From the IMG/VR virus record IMGVR_UViG_3300030099_001111, positions 1 to 52,426 of that record: a stretch of 52,426 nucleotides of DNA; one strand, written 5' to 3'. This stretch comes from a virus. The translations under genes were made by a program, and so were the position numbers. Shown here piece by piece: positions 5,486 to 39,547 of the stretch. The notes beneath the pieces are model-generated. The model saw only the letters and a program-made list of their open reading frames with translations, was not told the origin of the DNA and did no database searches. Position 1 is the first letter of the stretch. The number at the start of each line of letters is the position of its first letter.

Positions 5486-7090
5486 TTATCTCCTGCCTGA
5501 AGGTATATAATCTACATAAAAACCATTTATAATGTAGGGTGAATTTGAATCATTACTTGAGAATCTAAAATTGTTACTATGTCCGCTACCTACTAGTGAT
5601 TCTCTAACTAGTGGTTGCTCGGCTGCTCCAAATATTGCTTGACCAAATACAGATTGACCAAAAAGTGAGGGAGCAGGTACTGAATCTAATACTATATCAT
5701 CTGGCTGTGGTATATCAGAGCTACTATAATCATATCTGACTCTAAGTGTTGGTTGTATATTACTCTCTGGTGTTATAGATATTTTAATATAATGCAAAGT
5801 TTTTAATGTACCAAAGTCTCCATAATCATAATCTGGTGTTTCATAAATAGCATTTATGTTAGTTCCATCAAAACTATGTCCAACATCATGGGTATAAACA
5901 AAACCATTAGTATCGCCATGATAGTAAACTTCAACACCATTGTTATCAAAGTTTGAGTTGACACTAGTTACTTCTAAACCTAATAATTCTGACCATTGAA
6001 AACCATTTGGTCTTAAGGTACCTACTATGCCCTTTTGAGCTGAGTTAGCTAGTACTACATTAGTGTAATAAAGTCTGTATTGTGATTTTTCTCTAATAAC
6101 TAAACTATTAATAACAAAGTCATCTATGTTTCTAGCTAGTTCACTAACAATAGGTTGTATTTGTTTTGAAACTGTACCTAACTCAACGTCACCAATTCTT
6201 GCTGTTCCGGCAACTGTTCTAAAACCATCAGCTGCTAAAAATAATAAATCACCACCAATCTCTTGAATACTATAACCACTTAAACAACCTACGTTATCAG
6301 TAATTGGGTCTATCCTAACTGTATCAGAGTTATGAAGATTAATAAGTTTATGAATACTATTTTCACAAAATATAATTAAATCTTCACGGAAACCTTTAAT
6401 ACCTACAACTTGGTCTGATAAAGTAAAACTACCACCAGCTGCAAAGTTATCAAAATCATTAACTTGACTATGAAAAACAGTATTTAAGTTACCTGCCACC
6501 CCTGCTGCTATTAAATGATTATCGTGAATAGTTATAAACTTAACTCCATTACTACCACTAACAGTTATTTCAGCAGAAAAAAATGTTCTAGTATTTAAAG
6601 CTCCTGTACCTTCCATACGAAAGCTATAAATTTTATTAGCTCCATCAGCTATAAAAACTTCACCATAGTCAAAGGTAGCACCTTCAGCTAAAGCAAAAGT
6701 ACATTGACCTTGATTAGTTCTATTTAAAATACTACGACCTGTAAAAGTTGTATGATTATCTCCACTGCCTGAAACTGAACTTCGATTTATTTGTAACCAA
6801 GTAGCTCCATCATTAGTAAAATATATATCATCACTAACACAAGCTATAACTCCATCAGCATAAGGAAAAACTCCTAAAATAGTAGCAGTACTTCCAGCTG
6901 GTTGAGCTGCAGTTACATCACCTACTTTATATTTAGCATAACCATTTACTCTACGATAACCACCTTCAATAGAAACTTCAAAGTTTTGTAGTTTAGTTGC
7001 TACTCCGGGAGTTTTTAATAAATCAATAGCATTAGATGAGGTTAGTAAACCACCATCACATGCTACTGTATAGGGTTGAGAACGTGCCAT
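5486..7090 (-). CDS. Tail protein, probable hub/stabilisation (gp10/gp12-type) protein
   Basis: 534 residues, beginning MARSQPYTVACDGGL. It contains recurring short beta segments with GYRRV, DDIYFTNDG and EVFIADGANK motifs, which suggest a beta-propeller-like fold. In phages with this gene order, the protein between the gp4/gp11-type adaptor and the fibre is the tail tube or stabilisation protein (P22 gp10 or T7 gp12 type). It abuts the fibre gene by 3 bases and follows the adaptor gene by 3 bases, consistent with one tail operon. Assignment rests mainly on size, position and repeat character. Confidence 0.65.
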   Translation of the reverse strand: MARSQPYTVACDGGLLTSSNAIDLLKTPGVATKLQNFEVSIEGGYRRVNGYAKYKVGDVTAAQPAGSTATILGVFPYADGVIACVSDDIYFTNDGATWLQINRSSVSGSGDNHTTFTGRSILNRTNQGQCTFALAEGATFDYGEVFIADGANKIYSFRMEGTGALNTRTFFSAEITVSGSNGVKFITIHDNHLIAAGVAGNLNTVFHSQVNDFDNFAAGGSFTLSDQVVGIKGFREDLIIFCENSIHKLINLHNSDTVRIDPITDNVGCLSGYSIQEIGGDLLFLAADGFRTVAGTARIGDVELGTVSKQIQPIVSELARNIDDFVINSLVIREKSQYRLYYTNVVLANSAQKGIVGTLRPNGFQWSELLGLEVTSVNSNFDNNGVEVYYHGDTNGFVYTHDVGHSFDGTNINAIYETPDYDYGDFGTLKTLHYIKISITPESNIQPTLRVRYDYSSSDIPQPDDIVLDSVPAPSLFGQSVFGQAIFGAAEQPLVRESLVGSGHSNNFRFSSNDSNSPYIINGFYVDYIPSGRR

Positions 7091-33997: not shown

Positions 33998-34121
33998 ATC
34001 TGTGAAAAAATGACCTCACAGAATCGCTTGTATTGAACGTAAAGCATTCAAGTAATACTATATGTCCAAAAACTAACAAAATTGCTTAGAAGCGATATCT
34101 GAGGCTCTCAGAGCATTTAGC
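33998..34121. other. Convergent intergenic stretch
   Basis: 124 bases between the plus-strand early block and the minus-strand late block. It holds a hairpin TCTGTGA/TCACAGA (33999-34022) and a short GCTCT/AGAGC hairpin near 34097. Neither is followed by a convincing T-run, so I cannot assign a strong terminator. Confidence 0.4.
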
Positions 34122-35852
34122 TTAAATTGTGTAGATTTTTACCGGTTTTTCCTTACCTTTGACAAAAATAGACTCTAACTCTGTTACTTTACCTTTATAT
34201 TTGCTAATGGTTGCCTCACCAATAACTAAATTTTTACCAACAGATTTACATGAAGATTCTAACCGAGCTGCAAGATTACATGCATCGCCCAAAACACTAT
34301 ATTCAAAACGAGATTCACTTCCCATATTTCCTGCAACAACTTCTCCAGAGTTTATTCCTATACCAATCTCAATATCTAACTGTGCTTCTTGCATTGCGTG
34401 TGTTATTTGAAGAGCTGTCTTAATAGCTTTTTGCTCATGGTTCTCAACATCTACTGGAGCATTCCAAACAGCCATCATAGCATCACCGATATATTTATCT
34501 ACCATTCCTTCATTAGCTTTGACTGCATCTGCTTGAATAGTTAAAGCTTTGTTCATTATCTCAATAACTTCTTCTGGTTCTAGTTTCTCTGACATAGAAG
34601 TAAAACCCCTGACATCTGTAAACATTATCGTACAGTTTCTTCTTTCACCGCCCAATCTTAATAACTCTGGATTCTTTTGTAGTCTAGCCACTTGTCGAGG
34701 GTCAAGATAAGTAGAGAACTGCTTCTTGATTTGTTGTCTAAGTTTAAACTGAGTTCTAAAGTTTAGATAGAACTGTTGAGCAGAAATTAAAAATAAACTT
34801 ATTAGAGTCCATGTGACATCTATCAAAAGATTCTGCTGTATGAAAGACCAACCAAGATAAGCTACCCCACTAAAGATACTTAAGGCTGAGACTAAACCTG
34901 TAGTAATACCTAAGAAACCAGTTAAAATACCTACGAGTAAACCAGCTACTACTAAGATACTTAGTTCAGCAAACAAACGATAGTCTGGTATGCTAGGTGT
35001 CTCCAGTAAAATAGACTCAGCTAAGGCTGCTTGAATTTTATGTGGCTCTAATAAACCCACAGGAGTTGCTAGTTGTCTCTGTATTCCAGAAGCAGTAAAA
35101 CCAACAAAAACAAACTTACCCTGCACATCCATTTCAGTTAGGTTAGTCTCTGGTGTCTTGACCCAACTAATCCATTTTTTACCTGCTGAGTCTGTAGAGA
35201 TAGGTGGTATACCTTTTACTCTTATCATCTCTATACCGTTCTCGTTGGTTTTTATTTGATAAGTATTGCCACCGCCAAGTATCTTAAGAACTTCTGTACC
35301 AAAAGAAGCTACCCAGCCCTCTGGGGTTTGTTGGATGAGGGGTATCTGTCTAACTAGATTATCTATATCAACCGGCACTGACACAGCTCCTTGAGCTGCA
35401 GAGGCTTTTAAGACTGGAATGTTTTCTAAGAAACCTTGAGCTTGAGTTAAACTAATATCAGGTCCTAAGATAACTGTTCCGTGTGTCTGTGGATATTTAT
35501 TATTATTTACTTCGGGCATTGCTATGACACTAGGAGCTAAACCAAGCATCTCAGCAAAGGCTTCATCGCCTCCTAGTCTATCAGGATGAGGAAAGAGTAT
35601 TGTCCAGCCAACCCCCAAGGCTCCTTGTTGTAATAACTTAAGTTGTATGTCTGCTAGGGTCTGACGAGGTAAAGGATAACCACCTTGCTGGTCTATAAAC
35701 TCTTCATCAATGTTGAGGATAGTAAAGTAACCAGTAGGCTCTGGAGTCTTGACAAGGGCATCAAAGGTTTTGAGTCTTAGTATCTCCAAAGGCGGAGCAT
35801 TGAACACTAAGGGAAGTGTCAATAAAAAAAGTAAAAGACTAGCCCACTTCAT
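34122..35852 (-). CDS. CHASE2-domain adenylate cyclase
   Basis: 576 residues. One N-terminal membrane helix (4-18), a periplasmic CHASE2 sensor (about 25-290), three membrane helices (about 301-365), then a cytoplasmic class III cyclase (390-576). Catalytic residues are complete: metal Asp413 and Asp457, adenine-selecting Lys453 and Asp523, and transition-state Asn526 and Arg530. It should make cAMP from ATP in response to a periplasmic signal. It is the last gene of the late block and is coupled by ATGA to the FecR gene. In bacteria CHASE2 cyclases often sit beside FecR genes; finding this in a phage is unusual. Confidence 0.92.
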   Translation of the reverse strand: MKWASLLLFLLTLPLVFNAPPLEILRLKTFDALVKTPEPTGYFTILNIDEEFIDQQGGYPLPRQTLADIQLKLLQQGALGVGWTILFPHPDRLGGDEAFAEMLGLAPSVIAMPEVNNNKYPQTHGTVILGPDISLTQAQGFLENIPVLKASAAQGAVSVPVDIDNLVRQIPLIQQTPEGWVASFGTEVLKILGGGNTYQIKTNENGIEMIRVKGIPPISTDSAGKKWISWVKTPETNLTEMDVQGKFVFVGFTASGIQRQLATPVGLLEPHKIQAALAESILLETPSIPDYRLFAELSILVVAGLLVGILTGFLGITTGLVSALSIFSGVAYLGWSFIQQNLLIDVTWTLISLFLISAQQFYLNFRTQFKLRQQIKKQFSTYLDPRQVARLQKNPELLRLGGERRNCTIMFTDVRGFTSMSEKLEPEEVIEIMNKALTIQADAVKANEGMVDKYIGDAMMAVWNAPVDVENHEQKAIKTALQITHAMQEAQLDIEIGIGINSGEVVAGNMGSESRFEYSVLGDACNLAARLESSCKSVGKNLVIGEATISKYKGKVTELESIFVKGKEKPVKIYTI

Positions 35853-36961
35853 CCGGAAGACTGCTTGATAGTAATGGAAGAGTTACTACCGCCATTAAGA
35901 GTAATAGTAATTGCTTTGCCATCTTGTATAATTAAAACCTTATAACTGTTGTTAGTATCTAAATCTAATCTTACTGTGTCTTCTACTTGTCTTAAGAAAG
36001 TTATAACTGTGTCAGTAATAAAAGTATTTACTTGAGTGTTAGAGTCAAAACCAAAAGCTGTGCCTTGAACACTAATATCACCAGTGTTCAAAACATTTTG
36101 TTCTAACTCATCAACTTCTTCTATAATACTTAGAAGGTCTTCTAAGAAATTTACATCTAAATAGTTGATATCAAGTTCGGTGAACTCTAAGTTATCTTCT
36201 GCTAAGTAGTCTTGTTCTAGTTCGTCAAACTCTAAATAGTCTATGTCTAGAATATTGTCCGAGCCATCTGTTTGTTTTTCTTCATTAACAAAATCTGAGT
36301 CTTGTTTTGGTGGATTGACAATCAACATGTTGTCAATAATATCTAGAGTCAAGTCTAAAATAACAGGACTACTAGGTGTTGTTTCAAGCAACTCAACTGT
36401 AGTAGCTTGATAGGGTTTGTTGAGAACTACTTGTCCTGCTAAAGTAGAAACAACTATTTCACCAGAAGCAATTCCCTGTTCATTTGGTAATAGTATTATT
36501 AAAGACCTGCCGAGTTCATCAACAGTAACAGTAAAGTCTGTTCCCCTAATACCGATAGTAGCACTTGGAGTCTTGATAGAGATGTTTTCTTTATTGATAG
36601 AGGCTAATTTGCCGGTAATAAACCTAGCTGTACCACTAGCAAACTGTAGAGCCATCTTAGATTTAGATGGGTCAGGGTCATAGATAAACTCATCTATAAC
36701 TAACTGTGAGTGTTCGGTAAGTCGAACCTGCGAGTCGTCTAGAAAAGTTATACCTATTCGACCATTAGAAGTTTCGACATTATCAAAACTATTAATAGTA
36801 AAAGCGAGAGCAGCAGTAAAGGGGTCTTGCTCCCTTACTACTCTCCCTATACCTTTTAATTCTGTTATGCTTCCTATACTAGCAACTTGTGCTGCCTGAA
36901 TCTGATTGTATGATACAGACAGTGCCATTATTGCCAGTAGAAATAATCTTAAGCCAATCAC
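35849..36961 (-). CDS. Secreted FecR-domain protein
   Basis: 370 residues from a GTG at 36961. A signal peptide (LRLFLLAIMALSVSYNQIQA) is followed by a FecR domain at about 55-150, with SNGRIGITFLDDSQVRL and PSATIGIRGTDFTV, the typical core. A long acidic stretch (about 228-290) repeats LEF-ELxxxYL elements. A beta-like C-terminus (AITITLNGG, SSITIKQ) follows. It should be periplasmic. FecR domains pass signals across the envelope; here a role sensing export or feeding CHASE2 is inferred from coupling. Its start overlaps the curlin-like gene by 83 bases, and there is no good ribosome site. Confidence 0.82.
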   Translation of the reverse strand: MIGLRLFLLAIMALSVSYNQIQAAQVASIGSITELKGIGRVVREQDPFTAALAFTINSFDNVETSNGRIGITFLDDSQVRLTEHSQLVIDEFIYDPDPSKSKMALQFASGTARFITGKLASINKENISIKTPSATIGIRGTDFTVTVDELGRSLIILLPNEQGIASGEIVVSTLAGQVVLNKPYQATTVELLETTPSSPVILDLTLDIIDNMLIVNPPKQDSDFVNEEKQTDGSDNILDIDYLEFDELEQDYLAEDNLEFTELDINYLDVNFLEDLLSIIEEVDELEQNVLNTGDISVQGTAFGFDSNTQVNTFITDTVITFLRQVEDTVRLDLDTNNSYKVLIIQDGKAITITLNGGSNSSITIKQSSG

Positions 36962-37580
36962 TTGCTAAAGTTGAACTCTGTGTAATATTAAATGCTCGAC
37001 TGCTACCTGTTTGGTCTAGATAAAAATAACCATCAGCATAACCACTACCATTATAGACCACACTGTTTGAGTCACCATCTATATCTAAATAAGATGTGGC
37101 TCCATCAATATCTACTGTGTAATCTATGGTATTTAAATCACCATTGATAATCCAGTCGAGGTCTAAGTATTCTGCTAAAGCATTTGTTGCAACATTTAAC
37201 TCAAAGTCATTACTTGAGCCTGTAACATCAACATAGTAATTACCACCATCAGCACTATAAGTATCTGTTGGGTCTACTTGAATTTCAAAAGTATTACTAT
37301 CACCATCAAATTCAAAAAAACCTACTAGTGAATCTAAGATAATGTCTCCAATAAATTTGTTGGAATCCCCAAGTTGATTGATGTCTAAAGTCATAGAACC
37401 ACCAGTTAATTCTAGTGCAGTCATTTGACCTGAAACAGCATCAAGACCACCAATAAGGTTGGAACCGCCTAGTTGTTCAACATCTAGGTTTAAGTCTGAA
37501 CCAACTTGATTGATGTATATTTCATTGTCGGCTTTGGCTATAAAGCCTAAGAAAGCTAATAATATAATTATTCTATTCAT
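36879..37580 (-). CDS. Secreted curlin-like repeat protein
   Basis: 233 residues. A signal peptide (MNRIIILLAFLGFIAKA) is followed by about eight degenerate curlin-type repeats, each like Q-x-G-x-S-N-x-(F/I)-x-(I/L): INQVGSDLN, EQLGGSNLI, INQLGDSNKF, FDGDSNTFEIQ, VTGSSNDFEL, NGDLNTIDY, DGDSNSVVY, QTGSSRAFNITQ. Curlin subunits form amyloid fibres after export through CsgG. It lies directly after csgG in the same operon, so it is the likely export substrate. Very acidic, with two Cys near the end (TVCIIQ, final Cys). The Gln ladder is weaker than in CsgA, so fibre formation is not certain. Confidence 0.72.
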   Translation of the reverse strand: MNRIIILLAFLGFIAKADNEIYINQVGSDLNLDVEQLGGSNLIGGLDAVSGQMTALELTGGSMTLDINQLGDSNKFIGDIILDSLVGFFEFDGDSNTFEIQVDPTDTYSADGGNYYVDVTGSSNDFELNVATNALAEYLDLDWIINGDLNTIDYTVDIDGATSYLDIDGDSNSVVYNGSGYADGYFYLDQTGSSRAFNITQSSTLASDWLKIISTGNNGTVCIIQSDSGSTSC

Positions 37581-38379
37581 AACTCCAAAATCTCCTCTCT
37601 ATTCCTTGTTGTACTATTTCTAGTACACTTGTCTCTATCGCTTTTTGGAGAGCAATAGATACACTTTCGTTTTGTGTAACACCAGATTCTATTTCTACTA
37701 ACTCTGTCCCAGCTTCAATGAATCTAAAGATATCATTAGAAACTCCTACAGATAGGATAGTCTTTGATGTTAGTACTTCTATTAATATTTCTCCGGTATT
37801 AACAGAAACTAGTCGTAAAGAAACTGTCACAGTGTCTTCACGATATTGGCGGCTCATGCCGATGCCTAGATATCTAGCACCATTACCACCACTTTTTAGG
37901 TTCGTGTCATACGAAATGACTCCGCCCTGAACCAGTAGACCTGCGAAGATAAGAGGGTTTAACTCTGTATTATCTTCAAAGTCTTTGCGGGTTGTTCTAA
38001 TTATTTGTCGTTCTTTAGTTAAGTTATCTAGACCTACTCTTTCGACAACTGTAAAGAATTGACCATCTGCAGCATGTTTAAAAGCCCTGATAAGTAAAGC
38101 ATCAGGTGATTGAGTTATAGCAGAACTAAATAAAGCAAAGGTACTGTTACTCTTTCTTTGCCCTGTTAGGTCTGTGAAGCTATTAGGATAAATAGCAATA
38201 GTCGGCTTAATTCTAGCCGGTCTTAAGTTTTTTAACTCTTCTGACTGTAACTCTAATACGGTACTTGGTCTTTTCTTTGAATAAGCTCCTATGACATTCT
38301 CATCTAATAGAGAACTGTGTCTAAGGCTTGAACAACTAGAAAGTAAAAGAACCGATAGGAACAGTAATCTCTGTAACAT
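37573..38379 (-). CDS. csgG: CsgG, curli outer-membrane export pore
   Basis: 268 residues from the ATG at 38379 (GAGGGG just upstream, spacing tight); an ATG at 38391 adds four residues. A lipoprotein signal ends LLLSSC. The body follows E. coli CsgG closely: DLTGQ, AITQSPDALLIRAFK, VVERVGLDNLTKERQIIR, LVQGGVISYDTN, KSGGNGARYLGIG, VNTGEI and TSKTILS, ending IERRFW. CsgG forms a nine-fold pore that exports curli. Aligned with E. coli, constriction Tyr51 and Asn55 become Ser and Leu while Phe56 stays. It overlaps csgF by 44 bases and the curlin-like gene by 8. Confidence 0.94.
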   Translation of the reverse strand: MLQRLLFLSVLLLSSCSSLRHSSLLDENVIGAYSKKRPSTVLELQSEELKNLRPARIKPTIAIYPNSFTDLTGQRKSNSTFALFSSAITQSPDALLIRAFKHAADGQFFTVVERVGLDNLTKERQIIRTTRKDFEDNTELNPLIFAGLLVQGGVISYDTNLKSGGNGARYLGIGMSRQYREDTVTVSLRLVSVNTGEILIEVLTSKTILSVGVSNDIFRFIEAGTELVEIESGVTQNESVSIALQKAIETSVLEIVQQGIERRFWSYE

Positions 38380-38809
38380 TCCCCTCTGCATCTGTAATCT
38401 TTAATGTAATCATAGTACCGTCTGGACTAACGGTATATTCAATAGTATTACCCATTAACTCTAACACTCCAGCTGTGCTTGGGTCTTCACCAAACAAAGC
38501 ATCTACTAACTGTCGTGATAATTGAGCATATATTCTTGATTCTAAGTTTCTGATAAATCTTGCTAGAGTTGTATTATCTGCTTCTCTTTCTAGCTCTTCT
38601 CGATAAGCTTTTATTTCAGCTTTAATAGCTGCCTTTCTATTAAACTCTTGATTCTCAATAGTAAGATAGTGAGCTGAAGTATTTAGCCCACTAAAAGAAG
38701 GCGACTTAAATTTGTGTACTAATTCATCGGCAAATATATTACCGCTGACACCAGCAGTCATAACTAAAAACCCTGCAATTAATAGGGTTAGTTCTAAGCT
38801 TTTTAACAT
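38336..38809 (-). CDS. csgF: CsgF-like curli export partner
   Basis: 157 residues from the ATG at 38809 (GAGGAAATT before it); the longer frame lacks a site. Signal peptide about 1-27 (ending SGNIFA). The mature start LVHKFKSPSFSG parallels CsgF FQFRNPNFGG, the part that plugs the CsgG barrel in E. coli. The end IEYTVSPDGTMITLKITDAEG and a TEITVPIGSF strand match the CsgF beta C-terminus. A charged helix (RKAAIKAEIKAYREELER) in between is phage-specific. Role: completes the export pore and anchors nucleator. It follows holin-like genes by 8 bases. Confidence 0.85.
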   Translation of the reverse strand: MLKSLELTLLIAGFLVMTAGVSGNIFADELVHKFKSPSFSGLNTSAHYLTIENQEFNRKAAIKAEIKAYREELEREADNTTLARFIRNLESRIYAQLSRQLVDALFGEDPSTAGVLELMGNTIEYTVSPDGTMITLKITDAEGNVTEITVPIGSFTF

Positions 38810-38816
38810 AATTTCC

Positions 38817-39104
38817 TCAATCTTTTCGTTGGTCTTTTTTTCCATCTGCCCTTGCTAATCTATCTACATCTACAGGCACTCCCATAGCTGTCCGACACAT
38901 TGTGTCTATTCTTATTATATCGTTGTCTATTTGTCTTATCCTATCTATTAAAGCTACTATCATGCTATGTTGAGTATCTAGTTTTTTATGGACATCTGCT
39001 ATCAAATGATTAAATAGTTTCCAAACCATCCACCCAGCTGCTACAGCAAAAGCCGCAGGAATTCCTACAGTTTCTAAAATGTCCATCCATGTTTTTGTAT
39101 TCAT
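38817..39104 (-). CDS. Small membrane protein, holin-like
   Basis: 95 residues. One membrane helix near 12-32 (VGIPAAFAVAAGWMVWKLF), then a helical coiled-coil-like segment (DTQHSMIVALIDRIRQIDN) and a charged end (ADGKKDQRKD). This plan resembles small phage holins of the XhlA or BhlA sort. Its ATG overlaps the stop of the three-span gene. Candidate lysis protein; a partner of the 147-residue gene. Confidence 0.6.
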   Translation of the reverse strand: MNTKTWMDILETVGIPAAFAVAAGWMVWKLFNHLIADVHKKLDTQHSMIVALIDRIRQIDNDIIRIDTMCRTAMGVPVDVDRLARADGKKDQRKD

Positions 39105-39547
39105 TATCTACCTTTAACTAAACTACCACCAAAGTACATACCTATAATTGCTGAGACTAAATTAGTATCTAATTGTGTAATTACCAAGCCCTGAAATGTA
39201 ACCCATTCAAATATTTCTCTACCTTCTTTCAAGAACCAAAAGCCCGGATTCCAATTAGTGTAACCAACAGTCACGGAAACATCTGGATAGTAGACTGCTA
39301 CTAGTTTAGGTAGTAACACAATAGCAAAAACTGAAGTCAAAGCTATGATTCTTCTAGTCCAAGCAAAGCCTTTATCTTTTAAACCATGGTCTAAAGACTG
39401 TTGCCTTTCTTTCATGCCAAACTCACCACGGGTTATTAAAAGTTTTTGTTGCTCTGCCTTAGCTTTTCTACTCTCAGCCCAAACACTCATTAAACCACCA
39501 AGAACTGTGGAGGCTAACATAGTTATTATTTCAAAAGGAAAACCCAC
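39104..39547 (-). CDS. Three-span membrane protein, candidate holin
   Basis: 147 residues from a GTG at 39547 overlapping the previous TAG, with AGGAGAATTTGAATA upstream. Helices near 5-22 (FEIITMLASTVLGGLMSVW), 65-85 (RIIALTSVFAIVLLPKLVAVYY) and near the end (LVSAIIGMYFGGSL). A charged loop lies between the first two. The plan fits GTA-type three-span holins in marine phages. No lysozyme or amidase is seen nearby. Confidence 0.68.
   Translation of the reverse strand: MGFPFEIITMLASTVLGGLMSVWAESRKAKAEQQKLLITRGEFGMKERQQSLDHGLKDKGFAWTRRIIALTSVFAIVLLPKLVAVYYPDVSVTVGYTNWNPGFWFLKEGREIFEWVTFQGLVITQLDTNLVSAIIGMYFGGSLVKGR

Follow-up and report, generated by a model that had tools for sequence, protein, structure and literature searches.

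The window analysed here is an entire IMG/VR virus record (IMGVR_UViG_3300030099_001111; 52426 bases), whose minus strand carries, at 34122-38809, a module of curli-like export genes and signalling genes. Open reading frame (ORF) and Pfam analyses identified all five genes that an original prediction, made from the sequence of the window, had claimed for this block, namely csgF, csgG, a curlin-like gene, a gene for a secreted FecR-domain protein, and a CHASE2 adenylate cyclase gene; the claimed overlaps of 44 (csgF/csgG), 8 (csgG/curlin), 83 (curlin/fecR), and 4 bases (fecR/cyclase) are likewise borne out by the ORF coordinates. While the five genes stand as described, the start of the block at csgF does not, as the gene for a 95-residue membrane protein (u95) comes one gene earlier. 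In gene order, the module comprises:

38817-39104, minus strand: u95, the sixth module gene, a 95-residue membrane protein (phrog_18771, E 5e-21)
38336-38809, minus strand: CsgF (PF10614, E 1.3e-14; phrog_35372, 3e-42)
37573-38379, minus strand: CsgG outer-membrane lipoprotein pore (PF03783, E 9.4e-50)
36879-37580, minus strand: curlin-like secreted protein of 233 residues, with a signal peptide and degenerate Q-x-G-x-x-N / G-x-x-N repeats
35849-36961, minus strand: secreted FecR-domain protein of 370 residues (FecR PF04773, E 1.9e-11)
34122-35852, minus strand: CHASE2-class III adenylate cyclase of 576 residues (phrog_35576, 3e-128)

We collected relatives by a scan with the window CsgG, which gave 32 viral loci, and by a profile scan, which gave at least 575 confirmed relatives, 80 of them kept. 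Conservation was counted on 103 viral contigs, all of them with a relative of csgG, and each gene was scored only where the contig was long enough. csgF was present in 93 of 93 contigs, the curlin-like gene in 88 of 88, fecR in 82 of 82, and u95 in 79 of 79, and the cyclase gene was present in 36 of 45, three times on the other strand. The order is kept across about 100 viral contigs, which upholds the claim of one conserved phage module, and our confidence in the gene identities and their conservation is high. An opposite-strand cyclase gene, convergent with the remaining module, was seen in L113, L115, L116, L118, L121, and L128. Moreover, when u95 loci were sampled independently of csgG, with two single u95 proteins as queries, csgF lay downstream of u95 in 143 of the 144 contigs with room downstream; u95 is as constant in the module as csgF. 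It has one hydrophobic segment and a C-terminal coil, its relatives comprise 85-116 residues, two copies occur in 12 of 79 module contigs, and the only phage records that contain it are HTVC008M and Melnitz strains.

The csgF ORF opens at 38845, with a start at 38809 that precedes a signal peptide, and the csgG ORF opens at 38391, with an ATG start at 38379 ahead of a lipobox-like LSSC. The window CsgG is matched by the solved CsgG chains 3x2r/4uv2/4uv3 at E about 5e-43. In the curlin-like protein, the repeat-spaced Gly and Asn residues are invariant in 32 relatives, and its AlphaFold2 (AF2) model is all beta, with a predicted local distance difference test score (pLDDT) of 83.5; the closest structural neighbours of this model are phage "Curlin associated" proteins, and a sequence profile of the protein returned nothing useful from the PDB. 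The module shares the CsgG pore, CsgF, and putative curlin-type repeats with the csgBAC/csgDEFG curli system of E. coli, from which it differs in that (i) the phage repeats are degenerate, (ii) CsgE, CsgC, and CsgD were not found beside the module, and (iii) FecR, the cyclase, and u95 are added. The second curlin gene of HTVC008M (L034:9459-10784, annotated hypothetical) encodes five curlin repeats and a PA14 domain.

The cyclase is composed of an N-terminal membrane segment, a CHASE2 domain (PF05226, E 5.5e-30, residues 13-306), a hydrophobic membrane region, and a cyclase domain (Guanylate_cyc PF00211, 9.2e-25, residues 405-575); CHASE2 domains are, as a family rule, periplasmic. Asp413, Lys453, Asp457, and Arg530 are invariant in 24 phage relatives, and Asn526 is nearly so; we take these five to be the residues needed for class III catalysis. 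The catalytic residues align with those of solved class III adenylate cyclases (e.g. CyaB 3r5g, 1wc1), and the metal, adenine, and transition-state residues of the class are complete in the window protein. Ser519 stands where many bacterial adenylate cyclases have Thr, and by class III rules the Lys453 and Ser519 positions suggest use of ATP over GTP. Judged by these retained catalytic residues and Ser519, cAMP is the likely product. The proposal that this locus pairs a pore of the curli type with a protein predicted to signal through cAMP is supported.

The fecR gene starts with a GTG at 36961, and its overlap of ∼80 bases with the curlin-like gene is kept in close relatives. Its product consists of a signal peptide, a FecR domain (about residues 61-147), an Asp/Glu-rich stretch, and a C-terminal beta domain (about 300-370); by Pfam, the FecR domain stands alone after the signal peptide, with no N-terminal anti-sigma domain. 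The AF2 model has a pLDDT of 77-88 over residues 300-370 and low confidence in the acidic stretch. It matched the cell-surface (periplasmic) signalling domain of PupR (6ovk) at a Foldseek E of 2.4e-4 and the cell surface anchoring domain 5ix9 at a probability of 1.00 but an E of 0.08, and a sequence profile of the protein found nothing useful in the PDB. In the C-terminal tail, Gln346, Gly348, Asn356, Gly358, and Gln367 are invariant in 31 relatives, a Q-x-G ... N-x-G ... Q pattern that recalls curlin repeats but is no more than suggestive. The Pfam curlin repeat did not match the tail, and a custom curlin-repeat hidden Markov model did not separate FecR tails (top 7.5 bits) from shuffles (top 8.1 bits), so that the likeness comes down to the conserved pattern and the predicted strands.

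Outside phages, we inspected 68 CHASE2 places in 33 CHASE2-positive genomes, drawn evenly from the class of Brevundimonas (Alphaproteobacteria). A FecR gene lay within 5 kb of 19 of the 68 CHASE2 genes, against 0.44 expected, and in 10 of those 19 it was upstream on the same strand, as in the phage; CsgG occurred within 20 kb of none of the 68, which indicates that a FecR-CHASE2-cyclase unit exists without a curli unit. A CsgG-like domain 3.3 kb from a CHASE2 gene in one genome (G013) was rejected, its E of 5.9e-5 being too weak for a normal curli CsgG match. Three further clean FecR-CHASE2 cases were found in other genomes. In L325, FecR is followed by a CHASE2-cyclase about 10 bases away, and in L329 (707-3989), FecR, a Crp-like cyclic-nucleotide-binding regulator, and a CHASE2-cyclase form one gene run, which offers a ready model for the signalling half of the module. 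These two loci share with the phage a secreted FecR-domain protein upstream of a CHASE2 class III cyclase; unlike the phage protein, the fetched bacterial FecRs are without the curlin-like tail and have no curli genes nearby, and one has the Crp-like gene between it and the cyclase. The module as such was not seen in bacteria, where, by the phage profiles, csgFG loci had no FecR or CHASE2 neighbours. Seven loci bearing the whole module or the greater part of it were found in bacterial genomes, all on short contigs (3-23 kb) of metagenome-assembled genomes (MAGs), and we infer that they are probably phage. These phage-type modules (L037, L038, L039, L044, L046, L048, and L073) are binned in Maricaulis, Flavobacteriaceae, Rhodobacteraceae, and Pelagibacter MAGs, of which they are probable phage contamination. 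There are, then, good grounds for regarding the module as the union of a unit for curli secretion with a FecR-CHASE2-cyclase pair of bacterial origin. FecR and the cyclase have been noted not to lie inside bacterial T8SS (type VIII secretion system) operons (PMC9599517), a remark that this origin fits without invoking iron regulation.

The terminase and capsid of the window are nearest to those of Pelagibacter phages HTVC115P, HTVC103P, and HTVC104P, as well as of HMO-2011 and the CRP roseophages. As judged from these sequences, the carrier is therefore a member of the HMO-2011/HTVC115P-like podovirus clade, a new carrier lineage for the module. At least 12 module-bearing contigs of 47-54 kb have a capsid 73-100% identical to that of the window, which indicates that an entire clade of such phages has the module. 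It is also found on contigs of greater length (60, 84, and 104 kb) that lack a window-type capsid, and other phage lineages probably carry it too, which fits the published pelagimyophages and HTVC023P-type phages. A chimera of phage and bacterial DNA at 38.8 kb was ruled out, as an identical junction is present in many contigs that are independent of each other.

The five-gene set had been presented as unreported, which did not hold. Wittmers et al. described CsgF-CsgG-CsgA/B-FecR-adenylate cyclase in 2022 in nine HTVC023P-type podovirus genomes and in pelagimyophages (PMC9599517). In that set, one or two "histidine kinase" genes always come first, and FecR, often a second curlin gene, and the adenylate cyclase follow; the viral module was found expressed in metatranscriptomes (PMC9599517). 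Earlier reports noted CsgF and CsgG in pelagimyophages and Melnitz and raised sibling-capture, pinholin, and secretin ideas (PMC7029224, PMC9004378). HTVC008M (KC465899) and Melnitz (MZ577097) contain homologs of u95, CsgF, CsgG, curlin, FecR, and the cyclase in the same order, at about 29-48% protein identity, and differ in having a second curlin gene between FecR and the cyclase. The window module likewise agrees with the pelagiphage T8SS module (PMC9599517) in its sequence of small upstream gene(s), CsgF, CsgG, CsgA/B-like gene, FecR, (second gene), and adenylate cyclase. It differs (i) in its carrier, an HMO-2011/HTVC115P-like podovirus as opposed to an HTVC023P-type podovirus or pelagimyophage, and (ii) in the gene between fecR and the cyclase, which is a non-curlin ORF in the close relatives of the window and is deleted in the window phage. 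u95 is probably the gene published as "histidine kinase", which it matches in place, in short length, and in occurring once or at times twice; a kinase identity for u95 itself was rejected, as the protein is short and has neither an invariant histidine nor a kinase domain in Pfam. A search confined to the open-access literature returned no account of the module in phages of the HMO-2011 type, and the dedicated HMO-2011 paper makes no mention of CsgG, FecR, or a cyclase (PMC9038755). The gene set is thus already known, and what is new is the carrier lineage, u95 as a sixth constant gene, and the bacterial-pair evidence for the sensor half. The module is widespread in ocean phages, and its carrier range now extends to a further podovirus clade.

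We consider it moderately probable that the known pelagiphage T8SS module joins two bacterial units, one for curli export and one for FecR-CHASE2-cyclase cAMP signalling. In the first, CsgG would form the outer-membrane pore, with CsgF as its partner and the curlin-like protein as its export substrate, which would give the infected cell a surface fibre or cap rich in beta structure. In the second, the secreted FecR protein would act on, or report to, the CHASE2 domain that the inner-membrane cyclase exposes to the periplasm, by direct contact, and the cyclase so gated would make cAMP inside the cell. The gene in front, u95, is a fixed component and probably codes for an inner-membrane, holin-like, or scaffold protein. 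Expression of the module would be late, and any link between export and cAMP would run through the curlin-like tail of FecR. Stated in this way, the reading frames two questions, namely whether FecR gates the cyclase and whether curlin export gates FecR.

Several observations weigh against this reading. The window curlin-like protein matched Curlin_rpt (PF07012) only at E 0.0021 and 18.4 bits, under the 20.7 cut-off, and its model found no significant match in the PDB. None of the ORFs searched between 34 and 43 kb matched CsgE; curli of E. coli do not require CsgE, which alphaproteobacterial systems lack (PMC7029224, PMC9599517). The original prediction had suggested late expression with possible roles in aggregating infected cells, altering the envelope, or protecting virions; the one isolate study that looked, on Melnitz, saw no clumping, and it modelled CsgF as unlike that of E. 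coli (PMC9004378). Further, some of the fetched CHASE2 partners of bacterial FecR look kinase- or diguanylate-type by their C-termini, and the cyclase is absent downstream in nine of 45 contigs, suggesting that some phages can do without it or encode it at another place.

A rather unlikely alternative is that the CsgG/CsgF pore has been repurposed for lysis timing or solute flux without any fibre, the other genes regulating or plugging it; a pinholin/secretin role has been proposed for Melnitz (PMC9004378). The degenerate curlin-like repeats speak for it, as does one u95 relative that weakly matches holins (phrog_4898, E 0.002), which makes a holin-like role of u95 possible. The sole u95 without csg genes (L218:664-2710) lies in a lysis-like cassette, together with genes for a phage lysozyme and a membrane protein of phrog_1544, and about half of the loci have, ahead of u95, membrane proteins of apparently holin-like topology. 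However, a secreted curlin-like protein is present in all 88 contigs scored and would be needless for a bare pore, and the pore formed by CsgG lies in the outer membrane, not in the inner one, where pinholins act. No endolysin of the window phage was found among the ORFs scanned, so no lysis cassette is evident here; 5486-7090 has the PHROG name "amidase", with no Pfam backing.

We also regard as quite unlikely a role in adhesion only (aggregation, sibling capture, or superinfection block), with the fibre and a FecR partner at work and the cyclase as a passenger. While the contigs with an absent or inverted cyclase, the resemblance of the FecR model to the 5ix9 anchoring domain, and the PA14 domain of HTVC008M would suit such a role, the FecR-CHASE2 pairs in bacteria without curli and the kept catalytic residues of the cyclase argue against it. 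Within the reading of two joined bacterial units, a closed loop, in which the curlin-like tail of FecR would sense curlin export or the fibre state and switch cAMP via CHASE2, so tying fibre assembly to late-infection timing, is an improbable extension. Finally, FecR as a regulator that controls transcription of the curli genes in response to iron, with u95 as a histidine kinase, which has the shared FecR domain and gene position and the authors' own annotation in its favour (PMC9599517), is very unlikely, given that the phage FecR is equipped with a signal peptide but lacks an anti-sigma domain, that no sigma factor gene was found beside fecR, that the 85-116 residues of u95 include no invariant histidine, and that bacterial FecR genes often neighbour CHASE2 genes, this portable bacterial pair itself arguing against both assignments.

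Between fecR and the cyclase, the window retains a trace of a further gene, read from the sequence:

35843-35923, minus strand: what is left of an accessory gene (MAKQLLLLLMAVVTLPLLSSSLPDEVG...) that the window phage has lost; it overlaps the fecR 3' end

An intact signal-peptide ORF of about 147-163 residues occupies this place in the close relatives L003, L009, L012, L013, L016, L022, and L027. In the alignment, about 370 bases are deleted in the window phage, where only the first residues of the accessory ORF are readable inside the end of fecR, and the loss is common to L002 and L023. The ORF family has no significant Pfam match and no PHROG match. The predicted 4-base fecR/cyclase overlap is therefore correct as observed, but in the clade of the window it is a derived state that followed the loss of the accessory gene. 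An overlap of fecR with the cyclase is also frequent in less closely related contigs that carry the module, which marks the accessory ORF as a feature of the close clade of the window.

The left arm of the window carries, on the minus strand, the portal, terminase, capsid, and tail protein genes; the middle carries, on the plus strand, the replication and ribonucleotide reductase genes; and the right arm, again on the minus strand, carries the internal virion protein and tail fibre genes. The module lies at the inner end of this right arm, facing the reductase genes, and is co-directional with the virion genes and downstream of them. Two features flank it:

39104-39547, minus strand: 147-residue membrane protein abutting u95, with relatives standing immediately before u95 at 78 of 210 loci and a putatively holin-like topology
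33999-34022, minus strand: terminator-like hairpin with a 9-bp stem and a T tail directly after the cyclase gene, by pattern match only

The tail-fibre ORFs at the two contig ends (2-5482 and 49481-52426, both minus strand) share phrog_18345 and phrog_9942 and may be the two parts of a single gene on a circular map; upon direct joining of the contig ends, they are out of frame. Among the database records, OR851715.1 (1499 bases), named Salmonella phage S.Kent 1-2-1, contains a CsgG gene and is a probable host csg fragment deposited as phage.

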